DNA of 64,000 nucleotides. Origin: Oerskovia paurometabola (GTDB lineage: Bacteria; Actinomycetota; Actinomycetes; Actinomycetales; Cellulomonadaceae). Of this stretch, positions 2,826 to 31,427 are shown one piece after another (positions within the stretch are counted from its first letter, which is position 1; the number at the start of each line of letters is the position of its first letter). Under the pieces are notes generated by a model. The model ran no database searches. It saw only the letters and a program-made list of their open reading frames with translations, and had not been told where the DNA came from. The DNA lies in the NCBI RefSeq assembly GCF_016907365.1, contig NZ_JAFBBV010000001.1, forward strand, positions 930,001 to 994,000. Reading direction: 5' to 3'. The position numbers were made by a program, and so were the translations under genes.

Positions 2826-4040
2826 ATGACCCTGGTCCTTCACGACGAGCTCTTCGACGCGCAGCTCGTCCGAGCGCTCGCGTACACCGCGCAGGGCGGC
2901 GCGGAGATCGGTGAGTGCCTCGAGACCGCCCGCCGCATCACCCGGACCGACGGGAACCAGTGGTACGACGAGTGGTCCGCGACCGCCGCGCGCGTCGAGA
3001 AGGCTGCCGAGGAGAGCGACATCGCAGGCCACCGGGCCAGTGCCCGCGGTGCCTGGCTGCGCGCCTCGAACTACTACCGCACGGCTGGGCTCTTTCTCAT
3101 GGGGGCGCCCGTCGACGACAGGTTCCGCGAGAGCTCGCGCCGTCAGACCGAGACCTTCCGCAAGGGGGCCGCACTCCTGGACCTTCCCCCGGACGTGCTC
3201 GAGATCGGTTTCGAGGGCGGGACGCTCCCCGGCTACTTCTACCGGGCCGCCGACGACGGACGCCCGCGTCCCACGGTCCTGCTCGTCGACGGCTACGACG
3301 GCACGGCCGAGGAGCTGTACTTCGCGAACGCGGTCGCGGCGCTCGACCGGGGGTACGACGTCCTCGCGTTCGACGGCCCGGGTCAGGGCAGCGTGATCCT
3401 CGACCAGGGCATCGCGTTCCGGCCGGACTGGGAGACCGTGGTGAGCGCCGTCGTCGACCACGCGCTGACCCTGGACGAGGTGGACCCGCAGCGCATCGTG
3501 GTGCACGGCTGGAGCTTCGGCGGCTACCTCGCGCCCCGCGCCGCGACCGGGGAGCACCGCCTCGCGGCCTGCGTCGCCGACAGCGGACCGTACGACCTGT
3601 TCGACACGGTCGCTGCGAAGTTCCCCTCGCTCCTGGCAGGCCACCTCGGCGACGACCACGGGGCCGCTCTCCGGGTCGTCGAGACCGCGCTGCACCAGCT
3701 CCTCAAGAAGCCCTCGGCGGGCTGGGCGCTGCGCCGGAACCTGTGGGTGCACGGCGTACGCGACCCGCTCGACTTCGTCAGGATGTCCCGTGACTACACG
3801 CTGCGCGGGCGTGAGCACCTCATCCGTTGCCCGGTGCTCGTGTGCCGCACCGTGGGCGACGACCTGTCGGTCTCGTCCCGGACCCTCGCCGAGAACCTCA
3901 CGTGCCCGACCGAGTACGTCGAGCTCGGCCCCGGGGACGGCGTCACGGGCCACTGCGAGATGACCGGCCGAGGGGTCTTCCACCGGCGCGTGTACGACTG
4001 GCTCGACGAGACCCTCGGATACGACGGCACCCCCGCGTAG
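2826..4040 (+). CDS. alpha/beta hydrolase (dipeptidyl-peptidase/esterase-like)
   Basis: A 404-residue cytosolic alpha/beta hydrolase with a helical N-terminal part (~1-125) before the core fold. The nucleophile elbow GWSFGG puts the catalytic serine at 230; Asp345 or Asp346 and His376 (in GHCEM) fit the rest of the triad. The layout, a helical N-domain plus a core with an FDGPGQG segment near 182-188, resembles the FrsA-like family that includes 2,6-dihydroxypseudooxynicotine hydrolase. The substrate cannot be told from sequence. The start at 2826 has a GGAG six bases upstream. The gene stands alone between the divergent copper operon and a convergent cupin gene. Confidence 0.82.
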   Translation: MTLVLHDELFDAQLVRALAYTAQGGAEIGECLETARRITRTDGNQWYDEWSATAARVEKAAEESDIAGHRASARGAWLRASNYYRTAGLFLMGAPVDDRFRESSRRQTETFRKGAALLDLPPDVLEIGFEGGTLPGYFYRAADDGRPRPTVLLVDGYDGTAEELYFANAVAALDRGYDVLAFDGPGQGSVILDQGIAFRPDWETVVSAVVDHALTLDEVDPQRIVVHGWSFGGYLAPRAATGEHRLAACVADSGPYDLFDTVAAKFPSLLAGHLGDDHGAALRVVETALHQLLKKPSAGWALRRNLWVHGVRDPLDFVRMSRDYTLRGREHLIRCPVLVCRTVGDDLSVSSRTLAENLTCPTEYVELGPGDGVTGHCEMTGRGVFHRRVYDWLDETLGYDGTPA

Positions 4041-4064
4041 CCTCCCGGTGCCGGGGTGCGCCCG

Positions 4065-4397
4065 TCAGGGAGCCGTGGGCACGCTCGTGACCGTCGTCAG
4101 GAGGAACGCCGAGTCCTCCAGGGCGGCGACGGCGTGCCGCTCGTGCGTGAGCACGCGCAGCTCGCCCGGACCGACCTCCTCGTCGCCCTCCAGCGCCGTG
4201 ACGCGGACGCGGCCACGCAGCACCTGGATGCTCGCGGCGGGCGGCGAGTTGTGCTCGCCGAGCTCGACGCCCGCGAGGATCGCGATGATGGTCTGGCGCA
4301 GGACGCCGTCGTGCAGCACGACCTCCGCGCTGCGGCCGTTGTCGCCGTCCCGGGCGCGCGTGAGGTGCGCGTCGGTGAGCAGCTCGAGGTTCGTCAT
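4065..4397 (-). CDS. cupin-domain protein
   Basis: A small 110-residue protein that looks like one cupin barrel. A first motif with Glu-His and then GRVRV lies around residues 47-64, and a second, His-containing motif around 80-100 (GELRVLTHERHAV). Single-domain cupins of this size usually bind a metal and act as sensors or minor isomerases; no activity can be assigned here. It lies upstream of, and on the same strand as, the SDR gene complement (SDR is transcribed towards it with a 142-base gap), so they might be loosely co-transcribed. No signal peptide is seen. Confidence 0.65.
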   Translation of the reverse strand: MTNLELLTDAHLTRARDGDNGRSAEVVLHDGVLRQTIIAILAGVELGEHNSPPAASIQVLRGRVRVTALEGDEEVGPGELRVLTHERHAVAALEDSAFLLTTVTSVPTAP

Positions 4398-21617: not shown

Positions 21618-22805
21618 TCAGCCCGCCTCGCCGAACGCCGCCGCGAAGCGCGGCAGGCTCGCCTCGAGCGTGTCCATGCTCGCCGTGAGCGAGATGCGGA
21701 ACCGGCCCGGCGTCTCGAAGTACTTCCCGCCGAGGACCAGGACGTCGTGCTCGGCGAGGAGGGCTTCGAAGGCGCGGTCGTCGGGGTCGGGGGAGCGGGG
21801 GAACAGGTAGAACGTGCCCTCGGGGCGGTGCACGTCGTAGCCGATGTTGCGCAGCCCGGCGACCATCAGGTCGCGCTTGCGCTGGTAGAGCGCGACGTCG
21901 AACGGGATGCGCTCCAGGAGCGGCAGCGCGTGCTGGAGGACGGCGTTGGGGAACGCGTACCCGATCGCGATCTGGAGCGCCTCGATCGCGGGCCGCAGCT
22001 CCGCGCGCCCCGGCAGGGTCGGTGGGACCGCGAGGTACCCGATGCGCTGCCCCGGCGCGAGCAGCGTCTTGCCGTAGCTGTAGGCCAGCAGGGTCCACGG
22101 GTAGACCTCGGCGGGGCTGTGGAACTCCGTGCTGTCGAAGACGATCCGGTGGTAGGGCTCGTCGGAGACCACGAAGATGCGGCGTCCGGCGCGTGCCGAC
22201 GCCTCGTCGAGCAGAGCGGCCAGACGGCGCAGCTCGCCCAGGGGGTACACGCGCCCGGTCGGGTTGTTGGGCGTGTTGACGAGCACGACGCGGGTGCGCG
22301 GCGTGATCGCGTCGGCGATCGCGTCGAGGTCCAGGTCGAACGTCTCGGCAGAGACCGGCACCTTGACCGGCACGAGCCCGGCCTCGCGCACGATCACCTC
22401 GTACGCGAACCAGGGCGGCACGCTGTAGACGACCTCGTCGCCCGGGTCGCACACGAGCTTGAGCGCGAGGGCGAGCGCGGTGAAGCCGCCCGTGGTGAGG
22501 TGCACGTCGTCGGGCTCGAAGGGCAGGTCCACCACGCCGCGCAGGGACTCCGCGGCGGCGGCCCGCGCCGCGGGCTCGCTGACCTTGTACCCGAACCAGT
22601 GCTCGTCGCGCGGGACGGCGCTCGCGCGCAGCGCCTCGACGTACTCGGTCGGGGCGGGGTCGTGCGGGTTGCCGAACGTGAGGTCGAGGACCCCGGGGCG
22701 GGCTCGGCGCTCGGGGTACTCGTGCGCGAAGAAGCCCAGCAAGAAGTCGAACGGGGTGGACCGCGCGAGGTCGCGTGCGCGTCGGGAGATCGTCTCGTCG
22801 GCCAT
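21618..22805 (-). CDS. PLP-dependent class I/II aminotransferase
   Basis: A 395-residue fold-type I aminotransferase. Recognisable landmarks are TTGGFTA (~104-110, cofactor phosphate contacts), NTPNNPTGR (~178-186), SDEPYHR (Asp215, Tyr218) and the Schiff-base lysine Lys246 in SYGKTLLAPGQRIGY. The arginine that grips the substrate carboxylate should be near the C-terminus (PGRFRIS). Substrate specificity is not clear; aspartate- or alanine-type amino acids are the usual range. GAGGAG before ATG 22805 supports the start. It stands downstream of the ECF42 sigma gene with a 235-base gap that holds no obvious feature, so it is probably separately expressed. Confidence 0.86.
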   Translation of the reverse strand: MADETISRRARDLARSTPFDFLLGFFAHEYPERRARPGVLDLTFGNPHDPAPTEYVEALRASAVPRDEHWFGYKVSEPAARAAAAESLRGVVDLPFEPDDVHLTTGGFTALALALKLVCDPGDEVVYSVPPWFAYEVIVREAGLVPVKVPVSAETFDLDLDAIADAITPRTRVVLVNTPNNPTGRVYPLGELRRLAALLDEASARAGRRIFVVSDEPYHRIVFDSTEFHSPAEVYPWTLLAYSYGKTLLAPGQRIGYLAVPPTLPGRAELRPAIEALQIAIGYAFPNAVLQHALPLLERIPFDVALYQRKRDLMVAGLRNIGYDVHRPEGTFYLFPRSPDPDDRAFEALLAEHDVLVLGGKYFETPGRFRISLTASMDTLEASLPRFAAAFGEAG

Positions 22806-23040
22806 GGGAGCTCCTCGCTCGGGCGACGGCGGTGTGGACGGCGGTGTCCGTGAGTGGTCGCCGGGCGGCGACGGGCGGCGGTGCAGGGCCGCGAGGATCA
22901 GGCGTCTCCACACTAGCACCGGGCCCGCAGACGGGCCGGGGAGCCGCGGAGGCCCGACGGCGCCGCTCGCCTTGGGCGGGCAGGTGTCGTCGCGGAGACG
23001 GAGCACGGGCCGGCTCGCCCGTCCGGGAGGCGTCCGACCG

Positions 23041-24324
<1,284 letters not shown>

Positions 24325-24325
24325 G

Positions 24326-24697
24326 TCAGGCCGCGAAGTCGTCGCCCATGATCGGGCGGATCTCCATGGGCTCGCCCAGGACCTCGACCATGCGGCTGAC
24401 GATCTCGACGGCGCGCTCGTGGCTCGTGCAGTCGATGATCGCGAAGCTCGCGAGGACCTCCTTGAGCTCGGCGAACGGCCCGTCGGTCGCGACCACGCCG
24501 GAGTCGGTCAGGCGCACCGTCGTGCTCACCGCCGGGTGGCCCAGACCTTCGCTCGACACGAACTCGCCGGTCCGGCGCAGCTCCGCCTCGAACTCCTGGT
24601 AGGCCGCGAAGGCCGTGAGGGCGTCGTCGGTCGGCGTGTCGGCGTTGCCGGCGTCCCACGCGGCGGTCGGGGTGTATCCGAGCAACAGGTACTTCAT
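24326..24697 (-). CDS. YCII/DGPF-domain protein, partner of the ECF42 sigma factor
   Basis: A 123-residue protein with a ferredoxin-like YCII fold. It begins MKYLLLGYTP and contains the conserved TDGPFAELKEVL segment (~72-83, the DGPF motif), then an EIRPIMGDD ending. Such proteins are encoded next to nearly all ECF42 sigma factors and are among their targets, but their biochemical role is unknown. GGAGGAG sits just upstream of ATG 24697. The sigma gene begins one base after its stop. The DUF998 gene ends 44 bases upstream, so the three genes form an operon. Confidence 0.88.
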   Translation of the reverse strand: MKYLLLGYTPTAAWDAGNADTPTDDALTAFAAYQEFEAELRRTGEFVSSEGLGHPAVSTTVRLTDSGVVATDGPFAELKEVLASFAIIDCTSHERAVEIVSRMVEVLGEPMEIRPIMGDDFAA

Positions 24698-24741
24698 GTG
24701 GTTCTCCTCCGAACGGGCTGGCCGGGTCCGTGACCAGACTC

Positions 24742-25416
24742 TCAGGCGGTGACGAGGGTCCGCAGCCGCAGCGCGAGCACCGTGGTCCAGGTGAAGGCGA
24801 CGAGGCCGTTGACGGCGACCTGGAGGCTCGCGGTCTCGGGTGAGACGGGCATGAGCAACAGGAGGCCGACGACACCGTGACCGACCGCGGCCAGGACCCG
24901 GCGGGCACGCACCGCGCGGACGGTGAGGACGACCGCCGCTGCGGCGAGCGCGGTGAAGGCGACGGCGGCGACCACCGAGTGAGCGATGCCGTGCCACGAC
25001 ATCGACGCTGCCGGTCCGTCCGGCGTGCCGACGGGGAAGCCGTTCTCGGGGTCCATGACGAAGACGCCTGCGAGCACGAAGCCGACCCCGGCGATCCCCA
25101 GCAGGACGGGGACGGCGCGTCGACCTGCTCCTTCCCTGACGATCCGTCGGTGGGCCACCGCCAGGGCGATGAGGCCGAGGCCGGTCAGGGCGAAGGTGAG
25201 GATCTGGACCCAGCCGAGGTCTCCCGTGGAGAGCTGGCTGAGCGGGTGGACACGCAGGTCGAAACCCTCGCGAGCGACGGACTGCACGCCCGCGGAGACG
25301 ACGAAGAAGGGACCGGCGAGGGTCGCCGCGACGAGCAGCGAGCGGGTGTGCGGGTGGCGGTCGGGCGGCGGGTTCGATCCGGTGGGTGGCGTGGTCGGCC
25401 GGGTCTGGCTGGTCAT
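24742..25416 (-). CDS. DUF998 membrane protein in the ECF42 operon
   Basis: A 224-residue polytopic membrane protein. After a Pro/Thr-rich N-terminal tail (~1-26) come about six transmembrane segments. The conserved DUF998 features are the HPLSQLS turn after helix 1 and a DPENGFPVGTPDGP loop in the middle, followed by SWHGIAHS with conserved histidines. The function is unknown; the His-bearing loops face outside in most predictions. It is the first gene of the operon DUF998-YCII-sigma, with GAGGAG before ATG 25416 and the TGTCGA-N17-CGAGG promoter about 36 bases upstream. Confidence 0.82.
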   Translation of the reverse strand: MTSQTRPTTPPTGSNPPPDRHPHTRSLLVAATLAGPFFVVSAGVQSVAREGFDLRVHPLSQLSTGDLGWVQILTFALTGLGLIALAVAHRRIVREGAGRRAVPVLLGIAGVGFVLAGVFVMDPENGFPVGTPDGPAASMSWHGIAHSVVAAVAFTALAAAAVVLTVRAVRARRVLAAVGHGVVGLLLLMPVSPETASLQVAVNGLVAFTWTTVLALRLRTLVTA

Positions 25417-25451
25417 CGGGATCTCCTCGGGTGACGGGACGGTTCACGGCT

Positions 25452-25480
25452 ACCTCGGTGCCCCGGCAGAGATCTCGACA
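25452..25480 (-). promoter_or_regulatory. ECF42-type promoter for the DUF998-YCII-sigma operon
   Basis: On the minus strand, TGTCGAGA (from 25480) is followed after 15 bases by CGAGGT (ending 25452), about 36 bases before the DUF998 ATG. TGTCGA is the -35 element reported for ECF42 promoters. The facing promoter at 25515 has the same elements and the same spacing. Confidence 0.75.
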
Positions 25481-25489
25481 TCCCTTCGA

Positions 25490-25505
25490 TGTGACGCGCA
25501 TCACA
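25490..25505. promoter_or_regulatory. perfect CRP/GlxR-type box between two divergent ECF promoters
   Basis: TGTGA-CGCGCA-TCACA is a perfect 5-6-5 dyad matching the CRP-family consensus. It is exactly 9 bases from the -35 element of each flanking ECF promoter, so it is centred between them. Confidence 0.65.
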
Positions 25506-25514
25506 CCGCAGGCG

Positions 25515-25543
25515 TGTCGAGAGATCGCGGGTCGCGACGAGGT
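25515..25543 (+). promoter_or_regulatory. ECF42-type promoter for the lipocalin-like gene
   Basis: TGTCGAGA, 15 bases, CGAGGT: the mirror image of the promoter at 25452-25480. The start codon of the gene it would drive is 50 bases downstream of the -10 element. Confidence 0.75.
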
Positions 25544-25592
25544 GTCCCTGACTGCACCGACCGGCGCAGCGCGAGAGCGAAGGAGAGAGATC

Positions 25593-26084
25593 ATGAACGA
25601 CACCCCGCACGTGGCCCGCGTCGACGAGCCGGCGGTGACCGACGTCGACGCCTACGGCCTCGACGAGCAGGCTCCGCCCAGCGCGGGCCTGCGTGCCCTG
25701 GAACGGCTCGTCGGCACCTGGCAGGTGACCGGCGGCGCGCAGGGCGAGGTCACCTACGAGTGGATGGAGGGCGGGTACTTCCTCCTCCAACGGGTCCGCC
25801 TCTCGCAGTTCGGCCAGGAGATCGCCGGGCTCGAGGTCATCGGCAACCTCCACCCGTTCGGCGAGCCCGTGGGCGACGACGTCGTCTCCCGCTTCTACGA
25901 CTCCCTGGGCAACACGCTGGACTACGTGTACGAGCTGGCCGGTGACCGTCTGACGATCTGGGCGGTGGCCAAGGGTGGGCCTGCCTACTTCGAGGGCCTG
26001 TTCGACGCCGACGGCGACTCGGTCGTCGGGGAGTGGGTCTACCCGGGTGGGGGCGGGTACGCCTCGACCATGACCCGCCGCTGA
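25593..26084 (+). CDS. DUF1579-like / lipocalin-like protein, ECF42 target
   Basis: A 163-residue soluble protein. After a variable N-terminus (~1-30) it has the segment LERLVGTWQVTGGAQGEVTYEWMEGGYFLLQR split across ~36-68, typical of DUF1579 and related lipocalin-like stress proteins. Beta strands follow to the end (VSRFYDSLGNTLDYVYELAGDRLTIW). A ligand-binding barrel is likely; the ligand is unknown. AGGAGAGAGATC before ATG 25593 is a strong ribosome-binding site. It is driven by its own TGTCGA-type promoter, facing the sigma operon, and ends at a strong hairpin. Confidence 0.75.
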   Translation: MNDTPHVARVDEPAVTDVDAYGLDEQAPPSAGLRALERLVGTWQVTGGAQGEVTYEWMEGGYFLLQRVRLSQFGQEIAGLEVIGNLHPFGEPVGDDVVSRFYDSLGNTLDYVYELAGDRLTIWAVAKGGPAYFEGLFDADGDSVVGEWVYPGGGGYASTMTRR

Positions 26085-26090
26085 GCGAAG

Positions 26091-26128
26091 CCGTCCTCCG
26101 CGCGACGGGCAGCGCGCGGAGGACGGCG
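26091..26128 (+). terminator. terminator of the lipocalin-like gene
   Basis: Perfect 14-base arms (GCCGTCCTCCGCGC and complement) flank a 10-base loop, starting 6 bases after the stop codon. Confidence 0.8.
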
Positions 26129-26326
26129 CCGTGCGCCCCGCGCTCGCCCCGTCGCAGGGACGGACCGTGGGCGACCTCACACCGGTTGCTGACGCCGGGA
26201 CACGTTAAGATGGTCCGTCTGTCCGACTTCGTAGTTGGGGCGGTCGAACGGTCTGCGGCATCTCGCGACACGTCTCGATCCGGGCTGGAAACCCCACGAT
26301 CCCCGCTGCGTCCCCGAAGGTCGGTC

Positions 26327-27862
26327 ATGCCCGTCTCCCCTCCCTCCACCTCTGTGCCCTCGGCCCAGGTGCTCCCTCCCTCCGCCGAGCCCCACGGCTC
26401 CGCACCGGTCGAGCCGGACGCGCCGGTCGCGACCGGCCCCCGTCGCTGGTGGATCCTCGTCATCCTCGCGCTCACGCAGCTCCTGGTCGTGCTCGACGGC
26501 ACGATCGTCAACATCGCCCTCCCGCAGGCCCAGCTCGAGCTGGGCCTGACCGACACCGAGCGCCAGTGGGTCGTCACGGCCTATGCGCTCGCGTTCGGCG
26601 CGCTCCTGCTCCTCGGCGGGCGCATCGCCGACTACTGGGGACGCAAGCGCACCTACCTGCTCGGGATGGTCGGGTTCGGGGTCGCGTCCCTGCTCGCCGG
26701 GCTCGCGCGCAACGGCACCGAGCTCGTCGCGATGCGCGGCCTCCAGGGCGTGTTCGCGGCACTGCTCGCGCCGGCCGCGCTCGCGCTGCTCACGGTCTCG
26801 TTCCCGCGCGGCAAGGAGCGGAACACGGCCTTCGCGGTCTTCGGGTCGGTCGCGGGGGTGGGCGCCGCCGTCGGGCTGGTGCTGGGCGGTGCCCTGACCG
26901 AGTTCGCCGACTGGCGCTGGTGCCTGTGGGTCGACGTGCCCGTCGTCTTGGTCGCGCTGGTCGCCGGCCAGGTGCTGATCCGTGAGAGCAAGGCGGACGG
27001 GGACAACCGGTACGACGTCCTGGGGACGGTCGTCGTGGTGCTCGGCCTCGGCTCGCTCGTCTACGGGTTCACGCTCGCCGAGCACAGCTGGGCCGCGCCC
27101 GAGACGATCGCGTGCCTCGCAGCGGGTGTCGTCCTCCTCGCGCTGTTCGTATGGATCGAGTCGCGCGTCGCGCAGCCGCTGCTGCCGCTGCGGGTCCTGA
27201 CGAACAAGGTCCGGGCGGGCGCGTTCCTGCTGCAGGCGATCTTCGGTGCGCTCATGATCGGTGCGCTCCTGTACCTCGCGCTCCACCTGCAGATCGTCAT
27301 GGGCCTCTCGCCCCTGCAGGCCGGCCTGGGCACGCTGCCCATGACGATCATGACGCTCGTCCTGGCGCCCGTGGTCACCCAGCTCCTCGCGCGGTTCGGT
27401 CCCCGGCCCCTCATGATCGGCGGGCCGCTGGTCGCCGCCGCGGCGCTCGCCTACCTGAGCCGGATCACGGTGGACGGGTCGTACGCGGTCGAGGTCCTGC
27501 CGGCTCTCCTCGTGCTGGGTGCGGGGATGGCCCTGGTGCTGGTGCCGCTGCAGAACGTCGCGCTCGCGGGCGTCGAGCCGCACGACGCGGGGGCCGCGAG
27601 CGCGACCGTCAACGCCTCGATGCAGATCGGCGGCTCGATCGGGCTGTCCGTCTTCACCACGCTCTACGCCGGCGCGGTCGCCGGGGCCGTCGTCACGGAC
27701 GAGGCGTCACGGCTCGCGGCGTTCGTCGACGGCTACTCGGCGGCGTTCGTCGCGACCGCGGTCACGATGGTCGTGGGTGCCGTCCTCGCGGCCGTGCTGA
27801 TCCGCGGGAGCAAGGAGCGCCTCCTGCCGCAGGGCGACCAGGTCGCGGTCCACCTGGGCTGA
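26327..27862 (+). CDS. DHA2-family MFS drug exporter (EmrB/QacA type)
   Basis: A 511-residue, 14-helix transporter that should use the proton gradient to export toxic compounds. The Pro/Ser-rich N-terminus precedes helix 1, which contains the family motif LDGTIVNIALPQAQ (~65-78). The loop 2-3 motif GGRIADYWGRKRTYLLG is clear (motif A), and motif C (GSVAGVGAAVGLVLGG) is in helix 5, marking an antiporter. GAAGG lies before ATG 26327. A TAAGAT hexamer at 26206-26211 may be part of its promoter. No regulator gene adjoins it and the substrate cannot be inferred. It is convergent with the kinase gene, with a 40-base gap holding a short GCCGTC-CC-GACGGC hairpin. Confidence 0.9.
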   Translation: MPVSPPSTSVPSAQVLPPSAEPHGSAPVEPDAPVATGPRRWWILVILALTQLLVVLDGTIVNIALPQAQLELGLTDTERQWVVTAYALAFGALLLLGGRIADYWGRKRTYLLGMVGFGVASLLAGLARNGTELVAMRGLQGVFAALLAPAALALLTVSFPRGKERNTAFAVFGSVAGVGAAVGLVLGGALTEFADWRWCLWVDVPVVLVALVAGQVLIRESKADGDNRYDVLGTVVVVLGLGSLVYGFTLAEHSWAAPETIACLAAGVVLLALFVWIESRVAQPLLPLRVLTNKVRAGAFLLQAIFGALMIGALLYLALHLQIVMGLSPLQAGLGTLPMTIMTLVLAPVVTQLLARFGPRPLMIGGPLVAAAALAYLSRITVDGSYAVEVLPALLVLGAGMALVLVPLQNVALAGVEPHDAGAASATVNASMQIGGSIGLSVFTTLYAGAVAGAVVTDEASRLAAFVDGYSAAFVATAVTMVVGAVLAAVLIRGSKERLLPQGDQVAVHLG

Positions 27863-27902
27863 GCCGCCGTCCCGACGGCGTCGCTCGCCCTTGCGGGCCG
27901 CG

Positions 27903-28529
27903 TCAGCCCGCGAGGAGCGCCCGGATGTCCCGCTCGGCCTGACCGGGCGACGCCGTGCGGCAGCCCTTGTCGACCCAGCCCTGGATCAGGCGTGGCTCGT
28001 CGCGCAGCAGCCCCCAGCCGCGGCGCAGCAGCGTCAGGGGCGGCTTGCGCGACTCCCCGAGGTCGCGCAGCAGCCGGAACCAGAACGTCATGAGCCGCGG
28101 CCTGCGCAGGCAGATCGCGTCGGCCAGGATGCCCTCGGCACGGCAGGCCGCGACGAGCTCGGCCGCGAAGATCCCCTCCGCGATCACGAGGCGCGACCCG
28201 GACACGTCCAGATGCGTCGTGCCCGTGCGGCGCGACGTGGGGATGTCGTACACCGGGACGTCCGAGTGGCCCGTCGTGACGAGCGCGAGCAGCGCGTCCA
28301 TGGCGCTCGCCGAGTCCCAGCTCCCGGGGGAGTCCCAGTCGACGATCCCGAAACGCTGCGGCATCCCGGGGTGGTCGACGTCGTGGTAGAAGTCGTCGAG
28401 CTCGACGACCGGCAGGCCCAGGCGGCGGGTGAGCGACGTCTTGCCCGAGCCCGACGGCCCCGTCAGCAGGACGATCCGACGGGGTGGGACACGCGTGCCC
28501 TCGGGCAGGTCGAAGAGGCCGTTCGTCAC
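27903..28529 (-). CDS. uridine-kinase-like P-loop protein
   Basis: A 208-residue P-loop kinase. The Walker A loop GPSGSGKTS is at 24-32 (Lys30). LDDFYHDVDHPGMP carries the conserved Asp and Tyr of uridine kinases around 44-57, and DWDSPGSWD plus IAEGIFAAEL follow. This fits the uridine kinase family that phosphorylates uridine or cytidine, although such short actinobacterial homologues have not all been tested. The start is GTG 28529, with GAGAAT six bases upstream (complement of 28536-28541), consistent with a leaderless mRNA. It is divergent from the chitinase gene, with the large hairpin 28592-28631 in between. Confidence 0.82.
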   Translation of the reverse strand: MTNGLFDLPEGTRVPPRRIVLLTGPSGSGKTSLTRRLGLPVVELDDFYHDVDHPGMPQRFGIVDWDSPGSWDSASAMDALLALVTTGHSDVPVYDIPTSRRTGTTHLDVSGSRLVIAEGIFAAELVAACRAEGILADAICLRRPRLMTFWFRLLRDLGESRKPPLTLLRRGWGLLRDEPRLIQGWVDKGCRTASPGQAERDIRALLAG

Positions 28530-28591
28530 CCGACCATTCTCCCAGCCCGCGGACGCACCTGGTGCGCGGCGCCGTCGGGCCGCTGCTTGGT

Positions 28592-28631
28592 GTCAGGACG
28601 AGCGTGGCTCCGAGGCCACGCTCGTCCTGAC
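28592..28631. repeat. 17-base-pair hairpin in a divergent intergenic region
   Basis: GTCAGGACGAGCGTGGC and its complement flank a 6-base loop. It lies upstream of both the kinase and the chitinase genes, where a terminator is not expected, and shares its arms with the hairpin at 38424-38465. Confidence 0.75.
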
Positions 28632-28787: not shown

Positions 28788-31427
28788 ATGCAACGAAGCA
28801 GACGGTCCGTGAGGCGGTGGCTCGCAGGAGTCGCCGCGACGGCAGTGGTGGCAGTCCCGCTCGTCGCGCAGGTACCCGTGGCGTCCGCGGCCGAGGCGTG
28901 CGCGCCCGCGTGGTCGGCGTCGTCGGCGTACACGGGCGGCAGCGTCGCGTCGTACAGCGGGTCCAACTACAAGGCGTCCTGGTGGACCCAGGGCGAGACG
29001 CCCGGCACGCAGCAGTGGGGCGCGTGGAAGGTCGTCGGGCCCTGCGGGACGGACCCGACCGGCACGACCGGTGGGACGACGGGCGGCGACCCGACGGGCA
29101 CGACCGGCGGGACCACGGGCACGACCGGCGGCACGACCGGCACGACCGGTGGGACGACCGGAGGCGACCCGACCGGCGCCGACCCCGGCACCCCCATCTC
29201 CACGAACCCGCAGGAGAAGTGCCGCCCCGACGGGCTCGCCGTCAACAAGACCGTCGACGTGCCCTACTGCGACGTGTACGACGAGGCCGGGCGCGAGAAG
29301 CTGCCCAACGGTCTCGACCGCCGCGTGATCGGGTACTTCACGTCGTGGCGGACCGGCAAGGAGGGGACGCCGTCGTACCTGGCGAGCGACATCCCGTGGA
29401 CCAAGCTGTCGCACATCAACTACGCGTTCGCGCACGTCGGACCGGACTCGAAGATCTCGGTGAACGCCGAGTCGGCGACGAGCGAGGCGACGGGCCTGAC
29501 GTTCACGGGCGCCGAGAACGCGCTCGACCCGACCGTTCCCTACAAAGGCCACTTCAACCAGCTCACCAAGTTCAAGAAGCAGCACCCGGGAGTGCGCACG
29601 CTCGTGTCGGTCGGCGGCTGGGCCGAGACCGGCGGCTACTTCGGGGCCGACGGGAACCGCGTCGCCTCCGGTGGCTTCTACACCCTCGACACGCAGGCCG
29701 AGTACGACGCGTTCGCGGCGTCCGCGGTCGCGATGGTGCGGACCTACGGGTTCGACGGGATCGACATCGACTACGAGTACCCGACCTCGAACGTCAAGGC
29801 CGGGAACCCGGACGACTTCCAGATCGCCGACGCGCGGCGCGGCCAGCTCTGGAAGAACTACGAGCAGCTCATGAAGACCACGCGCGAGGCCCTCGACAAG
29901 GCCGCGGCGCAGGACGGCGAGTACTACATGCTGACCATCGCGGCACCCGCGTCCGGGTGGCTGCTGCGCGGCATGGAGGTCTTCCAGATCATGCCGTACC
30001 TCGACTACGTCAACGTGATGTCGTACGACCTGCACGGGACGTGGAACGACTTCGTGGGCGGCAACGGCGCCCTGTACGACGACGGCAAGGACGGTGAGCT
30101 CGCGGCCGCCGGCGTGTACGGGGCGTACGACGGGATCGGGTACCTCAACGCCGACTGGGCCGCGCACTACTTCCGCGGCGCCGTGCAGGCCGGGCGCATC
30201 AACATCGGCGTCCCGTTCTACACGCGCGGCTGGACCAACGTCCAGGGCGGGACCAACGGGCTGTGGGGCAAGGCGGCGCTGCCCGACCAGACCAAGTGCC
30301 CGCCGGGCACCGGGCCCTCGCTGGGCGGCACGTCCAAGTGCGGCAACGGCGCGGGCGGGATCGACAACGTCTGGTACGACGTCGACAAGGCCGGGGCCAA
30401 GATCCCCGCGGGCGGCAACCCGATCTGGCACATGCTGAACCTGCAGAACGGGAAGGTCGGCTCGTACGCGGCGGCCTACGGCGCGCCGACCGGTCCGCTG
30501 ACCGGGACCTACCAGCACAACTTCGACCCGGTCACCAAGACCGAGTGGTGGTGGAACGCGCAGACGAAGTCGTTCATCTCGGGCGACTCCGACCAGGCGA
30601 TCCAGGCCAAGGCCGACTACGTGGTCGCGGGCGGCTACGGCGGCCTGATGATCTGGGAGCTGGCCGGGGACTACGGCCTGGACGCGGCGAGCGGCGAGTA
30701 CGGCATGGGAGACAGCCTCGTGACGCGCATGCACTCGACGTTCTCCTCCGCGGCGCCCTACGGCGCGGCCAAGTCCAAGACCGCGACGCCGGCGCAGGCG
30801 ATCGACCTCGGGGTGTCGTTCTCGGAGTTCGCGCTCGGAGACAACAACTACCCGATCAACCCCCGGGTGACGTTCTCCAACCGGTCGACGGTCGCGATCC
30901 CGGCCGGGTCGACCATCTCGTTCGACTTCGCGACGACCACCTCGGCCACGATCGGTGAGCAGAACGGCTGGGGCATCACGACGGTCGCGGGGCACTCGGG
31001 CAACAACGTGGGCGGGCTCAAGGGGGACCTGCACTCGGCGACGCTCAAGGTGCCCTCGGGGGGCATCCCGGCGGGCGGCTCGGCGTACACCAAGCTGTCG
31101 TGGCGGCTGCCCATGGCGCAGATCTCGAACGTCCGCGTGACGATCGGGACGAACACCTACGCCACGACCTACGACCACCCGCGCGGTGTGAAGGTCGTGA
31201 ACCCGGTGGTCTCCGGCGGGACGACGGGCGGCACTCCCGGGGGTACCCCGGGCGGGAACACCGGCGGCGCCGGGTGCTCGGCGGCCCCGTGGGCCGCCGG
31301 GACGGCGTACAACGGCAGCGCGCAGGTCACGCACGCGGGCCACAGGTGGTCCGCCAGGTACTGGACGCAGGGCAACGCCCCCGTGGCCAGCGACTGGGGG
31401 CCGTGGAAGGACGAAGGGGCGTGCTGA
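28788..31427 (+). CDS. secreted GH18 chitinase with CBM5/12 modules at both ends
   Basis: An 879-residue exported chitinase that hydrolyses beta-1,4 bonds of chitin by substrate-assisted catalysis. The signal peptide (~1-35) ends VASA. Modules in order are: CBM5/12 (~36-88, with WSASSAYTGGSVASYSG and W/Y surface residues); a Gly/Thr/Asp/Pro linker (~89-131); the GH18 barrel (~165-650) with DGIDIDYEYP, catalytic Glu330 and Asp323/326/328; a beta-sandwich carbohydrate-binding-like module (~665-800); a Gly-rich linker; and a second CBM5/12 (~825-879). GGGGAGG precedes ATG 28788. Length and module order match ChiC-type chitinases of Streptomyces and Cellulosimicrobium. A long hairpin follows the stop. 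Confidence 0.95.
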   Translation: MQRSRRSVRRWLAGVAATAVVAVPLVAQVPVASAAEACAPAWSASSAYTGGSVASYSGSNYKASWWTQGETPGTQQWGAWKVVGPCGTDPTGTTGGTTGGDPTGTTGGTTGTTGGTTGTTGGTTGGDPTGADPGTPISTNPQEKCRPDGLAVNKTVDVPYCDVYDEAGREKLPNGLDRRVIGYFTSWRTGKEGTPSYLASDIPWTKLSHINYAFAHVGPDSKISVNAESATSEATGLTFTGAENALDPTVPYKGHFNQLTKFKKQHPGVRTLVSVGGWAETGGYFGADGNRVASGGFYTLDTQAEYDAFAASAVAMVRTYGFDGIDIDYEYPTSNVKAGNPDDFQIADARRGQLWKNYEQLMKTTREALDKAAAQDGEYYMLTIAAPASGWLLRGMEVFQIMPYLDYVNVMSYDLHGTWNDFVGGNGALYDDGKDGELAAAGVYGAYDGIGYLNADWAAHYFRGAVQAGRINIGVPFYTRGWTNVQGGTNGLWGKAALPDQTKCPPGTGPSLGGTSKCGNGAGGIDNVWYDVDKAGAKIPAGGNPIWHMLNLQNGKVGSYAAAYGAPTGPLTGTYQHNFDPVTKTEWWWNAQTKSFISGDSDQAIQAKADYVVAGGYGGLMIWELAGDYGLDAASGEYGMGDSLVTRMHSTFSSAAPYGAAKSKTATPAQAIDLGVSFSEFALGDNNYPINPRVTFSNRSTVAIPAGSTISFDFATTTSATIGEQNGWGITTVAGHSGNNVGGLKGDLHSATLKVPSGGIPAGGSAYTKLSWRLPMAQISNVRVTIGTNTYATTYDHPRGVKVVNPVVSGGTTGGTPGGTPGGNTGGAGCSAAPWAAGTAYNGSAQVTHAGHRWSARYWTQGNAPVASDWGPWKDEGAC
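29052..29180 (+). repeat. Gly-Thr linker-coding repeat in the chitinase
   Basis: Imperfect repeats of GGCACGACCGG(T/C)GGGACGACC-like units encode TGTTGGTTGGDP linkers between the N-terminal CBM5/12 and the GH18 domain. The repeat makes replication slippage likely. Confidence 0.75.

Follow-up and report, generated by a model that had tools for sequence, protein, structure and literature searches.

The extracytoplasmic function (ECF) sigma factors are mostly depicted as switches that work alone. In the ECF42 group, the available part of one study gives the promoters of RpoE10 from S. meliloti as TGTCGG-N17-CGTC, reports that RpoE10 seems not to activate the operon that encodes it, and describes the group as lacking identifiable anti-sigma factors near its genes (PMC6180224). 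In Streptomyces tsukubaensis, two-hybrid and co-purification assays show binding of RsfG to SigG1, which it antagonises, and the accessible portion of the source calls RsfG the cognate anti-sigma factor (PMC7730460). In M. tuberculosis, 32 CRP(Mt) sites lie between divergent genes, and sites near the start are linked with repression while upstream sites are linked with activation, according to the sections available (PMC4117774). The related regulator GlxR can activate: in C. glutamicum, ldhA is expressed less when the GlxR site is mutated, according to the excerpt at hand (PMC7999487).

Here we analyse a locus of Oerskovia paurometabola in which an ECF42-type sigma operon and an RsfG-like gene diverge from a common region with a predicted CRP-type site. 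The window is the whole stretch of DNA analysed, 64,000 nucleotides in length. At a probability of roughly 0.6, we consider the best overall explanation to be a two-fold symmetric ECF42/RsfG-like module that shares one GlxR/Crp-type dimer.

Layout of the locus and its promoter region

A preliminary description had proposed the gene order DUF998-YCII-sigma on the minus strand and a lipocalin-like gene on the plus strand; this order matches the analysis here (Table 1). The sigma factor has the ECF sigma2/sigma4 core and the C-terminal extension of about 200 residues of DUF6596/TPR type (scored by PF20239) that characterize the ECF42 group, and a YCII-domain gene lies nearby (PF03795), in relatives too. 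No Rfam match was found in 22800-28600. Elsewhere in the window, positions 26206-26300, upstream of an MFS transporter gene, look similar by eye in several Oerskovia species and have no Rfam match, and a tandem repeat at 29052-29177 falls in the apparent linker of a chitinase-like gene.

Table 1. Features of the divergent locus, in coordinates of the window
Feature	Coordinates	Strand	Basis
ECF42-type sigma factor, C-terminal DUF6596 extension	23041..24324	minus	PF04542, PF08281, PF20239 (E=1.6e-36); tree
YCII-domain protein gene	24326..24697	minus	PF03795 E=2e-8
DUF998 protein gene, first of sigma operon	24742..25416	minus	PF06197 E=1.4e-29; not seen in some relatives
-10 element CGAGGT, sigma-operon promoter	25452..25457	minus	letter match; kept in aligned modules
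-35 element TGTCGA, sigma-operon promoter; 17 bp to own -10	25475..25480	minus	letter match; kept in aligned modules
Predicted CRP/GlxR-type palindrome TGTGA-N6-TCACA	25490..25505		9 bp to each -35; kept in 44/45 f105 loci
-35 element TGTCGA, rsfG-like gene promoter	25515..25520	plus	letter match; kept in aligned modules
-10 element CGAGGT, rsfG-like gene promoter	25538..25543	plus	letter match; kept in aligned modules
RsfG-family protein gene, 163 aa, putative anti-sigma or sigma modulator	25593..26084	plus	phmmer, AlphaFold2 model

Two outward-facing copies of TGTCGA-N17-CGAGGT (25480-25452 on the minus strand and 25515-25543 on the plus strand) stand between the two divergent start codons, letter for letter where they had first been described, and TGTGACGCGCATCACA occupies the exact centre between them. 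The perfect palindrome was likewise confirmed, with measured gaps of 9 and 9 bp to the -35 elements. Measured from its centre at 25497.5, the first T of either -35 lies at 17.5 bp and the final base of either -10 at 45.5 bp. Because the printed sequences of the RpoE10 promoters SMc01149 and SMb20475 stop 12 bp past the first base of the -10, a point that we take as the start, we predict starts at 25550 (plus) and 25445 (minus), which would place the box centre at -52.5 from both; for a third RpoE10 promoter, SMc01151, the motif overlaps the mapped start (all three from the available part of PMC6180224).

With a spacer of 16 to 19 bases, TGTCGA-N16..19-CGAGGT matches twice in the window, whereas shuffles average 0.10 and none of 100 reached two. 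The whole 4.33 Mb genome holds 26 such matches, and only the two at this locus have the 17-base spacer, in agreement with the small local regulon proposed earlier. The window contains a single TGTGA-N6-TCACA palindrome (shuffle mean 0.00); the genome contains 14, all of them intergenic by custom ORF scoring, against 0 for the reversed pattern. Shuffles, genome counts, reversed controls and the conservation in family f105 described below rule out a chance match as the source of the promoter-box-promoter frame.

Sigma factors with DUF6596 are present in 271 of 394 genomes of the class (E <= 1e-10). From the better-scoring places we took 89 loci, two of which are rsfG-linked and without box (L138 = G696, L152 = G311), leaving 87 controls. 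A perfect box is absent from these 87 other ECF42 loci (357 kb) and a one-mismatch box is present in 2, which rules out the box as a general ECF42 feature. A sigma-ORF filter was passed by 37 of the 89 loci, and the 12 of these with a canonical promoter read TGTC[GA]A-N17-CG[AT]C, in agreement with the S. meliloti RpoE10 sequences in the available part of PMC6180224; none of the 12 has a box within 150 bp of that promoter. Of the earlier assignment to the ECF42 promoter motif, the -35 TGTCGA and the 17-bp spacing therefore stand, whereas CGAGGT is better regarded as a -10 sub-type, kept in the clade, because the 12 other ECF42 loci read CG[AT]C at the same spacing.

Conservation and descent of the module

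Relatives were collected through the plus-strand protein and not through the motif. The arrangement was found in 52 genomes of five families, namely 44 of family f105, four Oerskovia, Actinoplanes and three single genomes (G226, G289 and G107). Within the genus Oerskovia, the plus-strand protein was matched in 5 of 7 genomes, once partially, and the DUF998 gene is present in four of the seven, all of which keep the layout. Loss of the palindrome in relatives had been set beforehand as one test of the earlier reading; the palindrome is kept in the four Oerskovia and in further families. Outside the genus, the frame measures 92 bp from -10 to -10 in Nocardiopsis sp. N85, in two Actinomadura and in genomes of families f21, f22 and f105, and Actinoplanes italicus carries the same frame at 91 bp. 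Gaps of 8 or 9 were found in the four Oerskovia, Actinoplanes italicus, one f21 genome and two f22 genomes. The Nocardiopsis and Actinomadura 92-mers are identical to those of three f105 genomes (G887, G1020 and G1043) and were counted once. The partial match is that of O. rustica (L223 of G003, 3777-4195), where the C-terminal part of the rsfG-like gene abuts a sigma-gene fragment, and DUF998, YCII and the entire promoter region are gone.

In f105, 341 genomes were searched and 98 matched at E <= 1e-50; the best 45 places (E <= 1.6e-74) and six lower-scoring ones were examined, picked by protein score and not by motif, with a frame script that covered 91-93 bp only. Among the best 45, a box within two mismatches lies 9 +/-1 bp from the promoters on both sides in 44, a figure that belongs to a widened pattern, the stricter one having fitted 32 loci. 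Of these 44 boxes, 17 are perfect, 20 deviate at one position and 7 at two; 40 loci have 9/9 gaps, and in the remaining four a single gap is one base longer or shorter. Among the 45, only G690 departs, with about 1.1 kb of additional DNA separating the two genes, and the six lower-scoring rsfG-like genes lack the frame. Within the DNA examined, 44 of the 45 loci have YCII on the strand opposite the rsfG-like gene and 42 have both YCII and sigma there, with DUF998 also present in 33 of those 42; several box-bearing loci are without DUF998 in the stretch read.

Across 48 distinct 92-mers, including one poor row (L078), mean information content was 1.80 and 1.89 bits for the -10s, 1.67 and 1.60 for the -35s, 1.78 and 1.64 for the half-sites, 0.85 for the box core, 0.76 and 0.58 for the promoter spacers, and 0.33 and 0.25 for the two gaps. 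The -10s, the -35s and the box half-sites are conserved, and the gaps are near background.

In searches by motif only, box-9-promoter at up to three mismatches matched 11 of the 394 class genomes, with 0 for the reversed control, and eight of the 11 hold divergent modules (G107 through one arm only, G730 with two modules); the other three (G651, G689 and G663) show single arms at three mismatches and were taken as chance. The -35/box/-35 core at up to two mismatches matched six of 396 genomes of the phylum (reversed control 0), with modules in G000, G289 and G226, and the two-mismatch core matches of G102, G352 and G303, seen in part, were also taken as chance.

The box is not indispensable, since five rsfG-linked ECF42 loci lack it. 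The -35s are divergent, the spacing wider and the box absent in G048 and G696; Kribbella L052 has neither DUF998 nor box; G311 has the rsfG-like and sigma genes on one strand and no box; and G690 is the f105 exception above. The genome G730 holds two modules that both keep promoter-box-promoter at 92 bp, the first with YCII and an rsfG-like gene and no sigma gene in the 6.5 kb read, the second with DUF998, YCII, sigma and a broken or decayed rsfG-like copy. These gene losses (L161 and L107) are complementary, and the duplication fits one sigma factor serving both modules.

A quick tree of 109 sigma sequences groups those linked to rsfG-like genes in a single clade (SH-aLRT 99), within which the 14 sigmas of CRP-box modules form a sub-clade (82, one change). 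On this tree, then, the predicted CRP box belongs to one ECF42 clade. In a tree of 76 RsfG-like proteins the ECF42-linked ones fall on one side of one branch (98/90; bootstrap not settled). The module set needs two changes there because G696 is placed next to Oerskovia on a weakly supported branch (88/68); G696 may thus have lost the box, or the branch may be misplaced. Taken as they are, the trees hint that one putative anti-sigma family may have changed its sigma partner once.

The RsfG-like partner and the proposed control of both promoters

The 163-aa plus-strand protein has no Pfam or NCBIfam match at E <= 0.001. Its AlphaFold2 model, built from 12 sequences with a mean pLDDT of 87.4, matches the RsfG structure 7qh3 (E 2.5e-18, 59-62% identity), and phmmer pairs it with the same protein at E=2.8e-52. 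The "lipocalin-like" label of the preliminary description, and with it a lipocalin of unknown role, was dropped in favour of this RsfG homology at about 60% identity. The whole-circuit reading offered there is supported as to the matched promoters and the shared CRP-type site and had missed the anti-sigma homology of the partner. In sequence and fold the protein belongs with RsfG; its neighbouring sigma factor is an ECF42 and not the ECF56 SnoaL_2 sigma.

Because of this identity, the gene pair is probably a sigma factor and its anti-sigma or modulator. An rsfG-like gene of either kind is found in 25 of the 394 class genomes. It appears that an ECF42 system has acquired an RsfG-type protein. 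We think it likely that the protein acts on the ECF42 sigma, and the circuit is probably one of sigma and anti-sigma rather than of sigma and effector. That the protein is instead an effector or ligand-binding target made under the sigma factor seems unlikely to us. Such a role would accord with the description of ECF42 as a group without identifiable anti-sigmas (PMC6180224, in its available part) and with the small-barrel fold, for which a structure search of the model returned weak matches to lipid-binding proteins and nitrobindin. It sits poorly with about 60% identity to a protein that binds and antagonises a sigma with a C-terminal extension (PMC7730460, accessible portion), and with the paralogue loci of the RsfG-like tree, where a sigma ORF with a SnoaL-like end lies just upstream in 2 of 19. 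One of the two was identified by Pfam (L087, where the rsfG-like gene follows a sigma with a SnoaL_2 domain) and one by reading (L089); a simple pattern found none in the other 17. By eye, an upstream CCGATTCC...CGTCATA-like element is often present in non-module paralogues (L270-L275 and several of L081-L089), and perhaps it is the promoter of the paralogues' own sigma.

We propose that the ECF42 sigma would transcribe both its own operon, DUF998-YCII-sigma, and the divergent RsfG-family gene from the two copies of TGTCGA-N17-CGAGGT; dependence of both promoters on this sigma is very probable from their sequences. A single GlxR/Crp-type dimer on the central palindrome, at about -52.5 from each predicted start, would most likely help both promoters, so that firing of the sigma loop would require cAMP-Crp and active sigma at the same time. 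Probably the RsfG-like product would then hold the sigma in check, and the two equal promoters would provide positive and negative feedback in a coupled form. We lean towards activation rather than repression by GlxR/Crp, because the fixed gap suggests a face-dependent contact with polymerase over simple blocking. In its most specific form, the proposal has one cAMP-Crp dimer engaging two divergent ECF42 polymerases at -52.5 and firing sigma and anti-sigma at matched strength, which we offer tentatively as doubtful; if true, sigma and anti-sigma would form a symmetric switch gated by cAMP in the manner of an AND-gate, ECF42 would have its first anti-sigma, and CRP would work on an ECF promoter from a position outside the textbook ones.

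Classical CRP activation takes place from -41.5, or from -61.5 and beyond. As -52.5 is not a textbook activating position, repression is possible, and GlxR/Crp could be a shared repressor that excludes the alpha C-terminal domains of both polymerases and keeps a self-amplifying loop off until cAMP falls. These domains dock upstream of the -35, and the box fills just that stretch at both promoters. A position of -52.5 is also not far upstream in terms of the positional rule for M. tuberculosis CRP, as set out in the available part of the source; the named repressing example there, however, occludes the start itself (PMC4117774). Blocking would moreover be expected to tolerate changes in spacing, yet 44 f105 loci keep it within +/-1 bp per side. 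On balance we judge shared repression rather improbable.

The bases beside the ten fixed letters of the box bear on the question of which regulator reads it. The Rex consensus is TTGTGAAN4TTCACAA. Position 6 of the module boxes is Y (T/C) and position 11 is R (A/G) in 38 of 39 distinct 92-mers, and both Rex inner bases, like both Rex flanks, occur in 0 of 39, which rules out a Rex site and bears out the claim of a CRP-family site between the promoters. The same genome holds a Crp-like protein close to PDB 3d0s (E 8.3e-81), a Crp/Fnr-family regulator that we take to be M. tuberculosis Rv3676, encoded beside an ORF read as endonuclease III, together with one gene with a PF00211 cyclase domain. 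Inner bases of CRP type also occur in two other perfect boxes, one upstream of citrate synthase and one upstream of an ECF sigma gene. We regard binding of GlxR/Crp to the box, predicted from its letters, as highly likely.

A reader other than the GlxR/Crp orthologue, whether a different CRP/FNR-family member or Rex, is quite improbable. Six of the 14 perfect palindromes in the Oerskovia genome carry T...A flanks of the Rex type, some near cytochrome bd-like and alcohol or aldehyde dehydrogenase genes, and so the ten fixed letters cannot alone separate CRP from Rex; the inner bases and flanks of the module boxes nevertheless speak against it, and PF00027 gives only two proteins in the genome, the second of which was read as running on into apparently reductase-like sequence. 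The neighbours of the Rex-flanked palindromes (L030-L033, L039 and L040; cytochrome bd-like by eye) make a Rex regulon possible at those places. Two further observations concern other parts of the genome: a cNMP-binding domain in an ORF read as running on into a reductase-like protein (L095 at G000:C1:826665, and L098) is about 5 kb from the second ECF42 gene, and a perfect palindrome at G000:C1:2644654-2644669 (L036), its inner bases of CRP type, is flanked by an Asp23-family gene and an ECF sigma gene.

That the symmetric layout is a by-product of descent through horizontal transfer, with a box that has no role, is very improbable, for although the scarcity of rsfG-like genes in the class (only 25 of 394 genomes) and the single clade of CRP-bearing sigmas would suit it, the gaps have drifted to near background while box and spacing have not, and a random 16-mer of the control loci comes within two mismatches of the box at 6.5e-5.

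Comparison with known systems

The preliminary description had known of no case with this symmetry, and we found no description of ECF42 with CRP or GlxR in the full-text literature searched, which is mostly without subscription papers and so is weak evidence; papers that name both ECF42 and CRP have CRP only in their reference lists. The conserved spacing suggests an unstudied switch that may link carbon or energy state to a sigma factor. A CRP site that keeps register with two ECF promoters across dozens of genomes from several families would couple an ECF loop directly to the cAMP (carbon/energy) state, and the module would offer a clean natural setting in which to study how CRP acts together with an ECF holoenzyme. 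Its RsfG-like partner is a candidate controller of an ECF42 factor, in a group reported without identifiable anti-sigmas in the part of PMC6180224 available.

The locus resembles the ECF42 systems of S. venezuelae (Sven_0747), P. putida (ECF-10) and S. meliloti (RpoE10) in its DUF6596/TPR-type extension, its YCII neighbour, its TGTC-type -35 and its 17-bp spacing. Unlike these systems, it has a divergent rsfG-like partner, a -10 that reads CGAGGT and not CG[AT]C, and a shared CRP-type site.

With SigG1-RsfG (ECF56) of Streptomyces tsukubaensis, it shares a sigma factor whose C-terminal extension is regulatory, and its partner protein has about 60% identity to RsfG. The known partner of RsfG, however, is an ECF56 factor with a SnoaL_2 domain, and the ECF42 extension is of a different, TPR type. 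In S. tsukubaensis, rsfG lies downstream of sigG1 and is co-transcribed with it, whereas here the gene is oriented away from its partner, an ECF42 sigma; the promoter motifs differ as well, and the accessible text mentions no CRP site for SigG1-RsfG (PMC7730460).

Finally, GlxR and CRP(Mt) sites offer the likeness of a CRP-type palindrome between divergent genes. Where two start distances are given for a CRP(Mt) site in the available part of the source, they are unequal, for example -62.5 and -130.5 (PMC4117774), whereas the module described here has equal predicted distances and two promoters of the ECF type.
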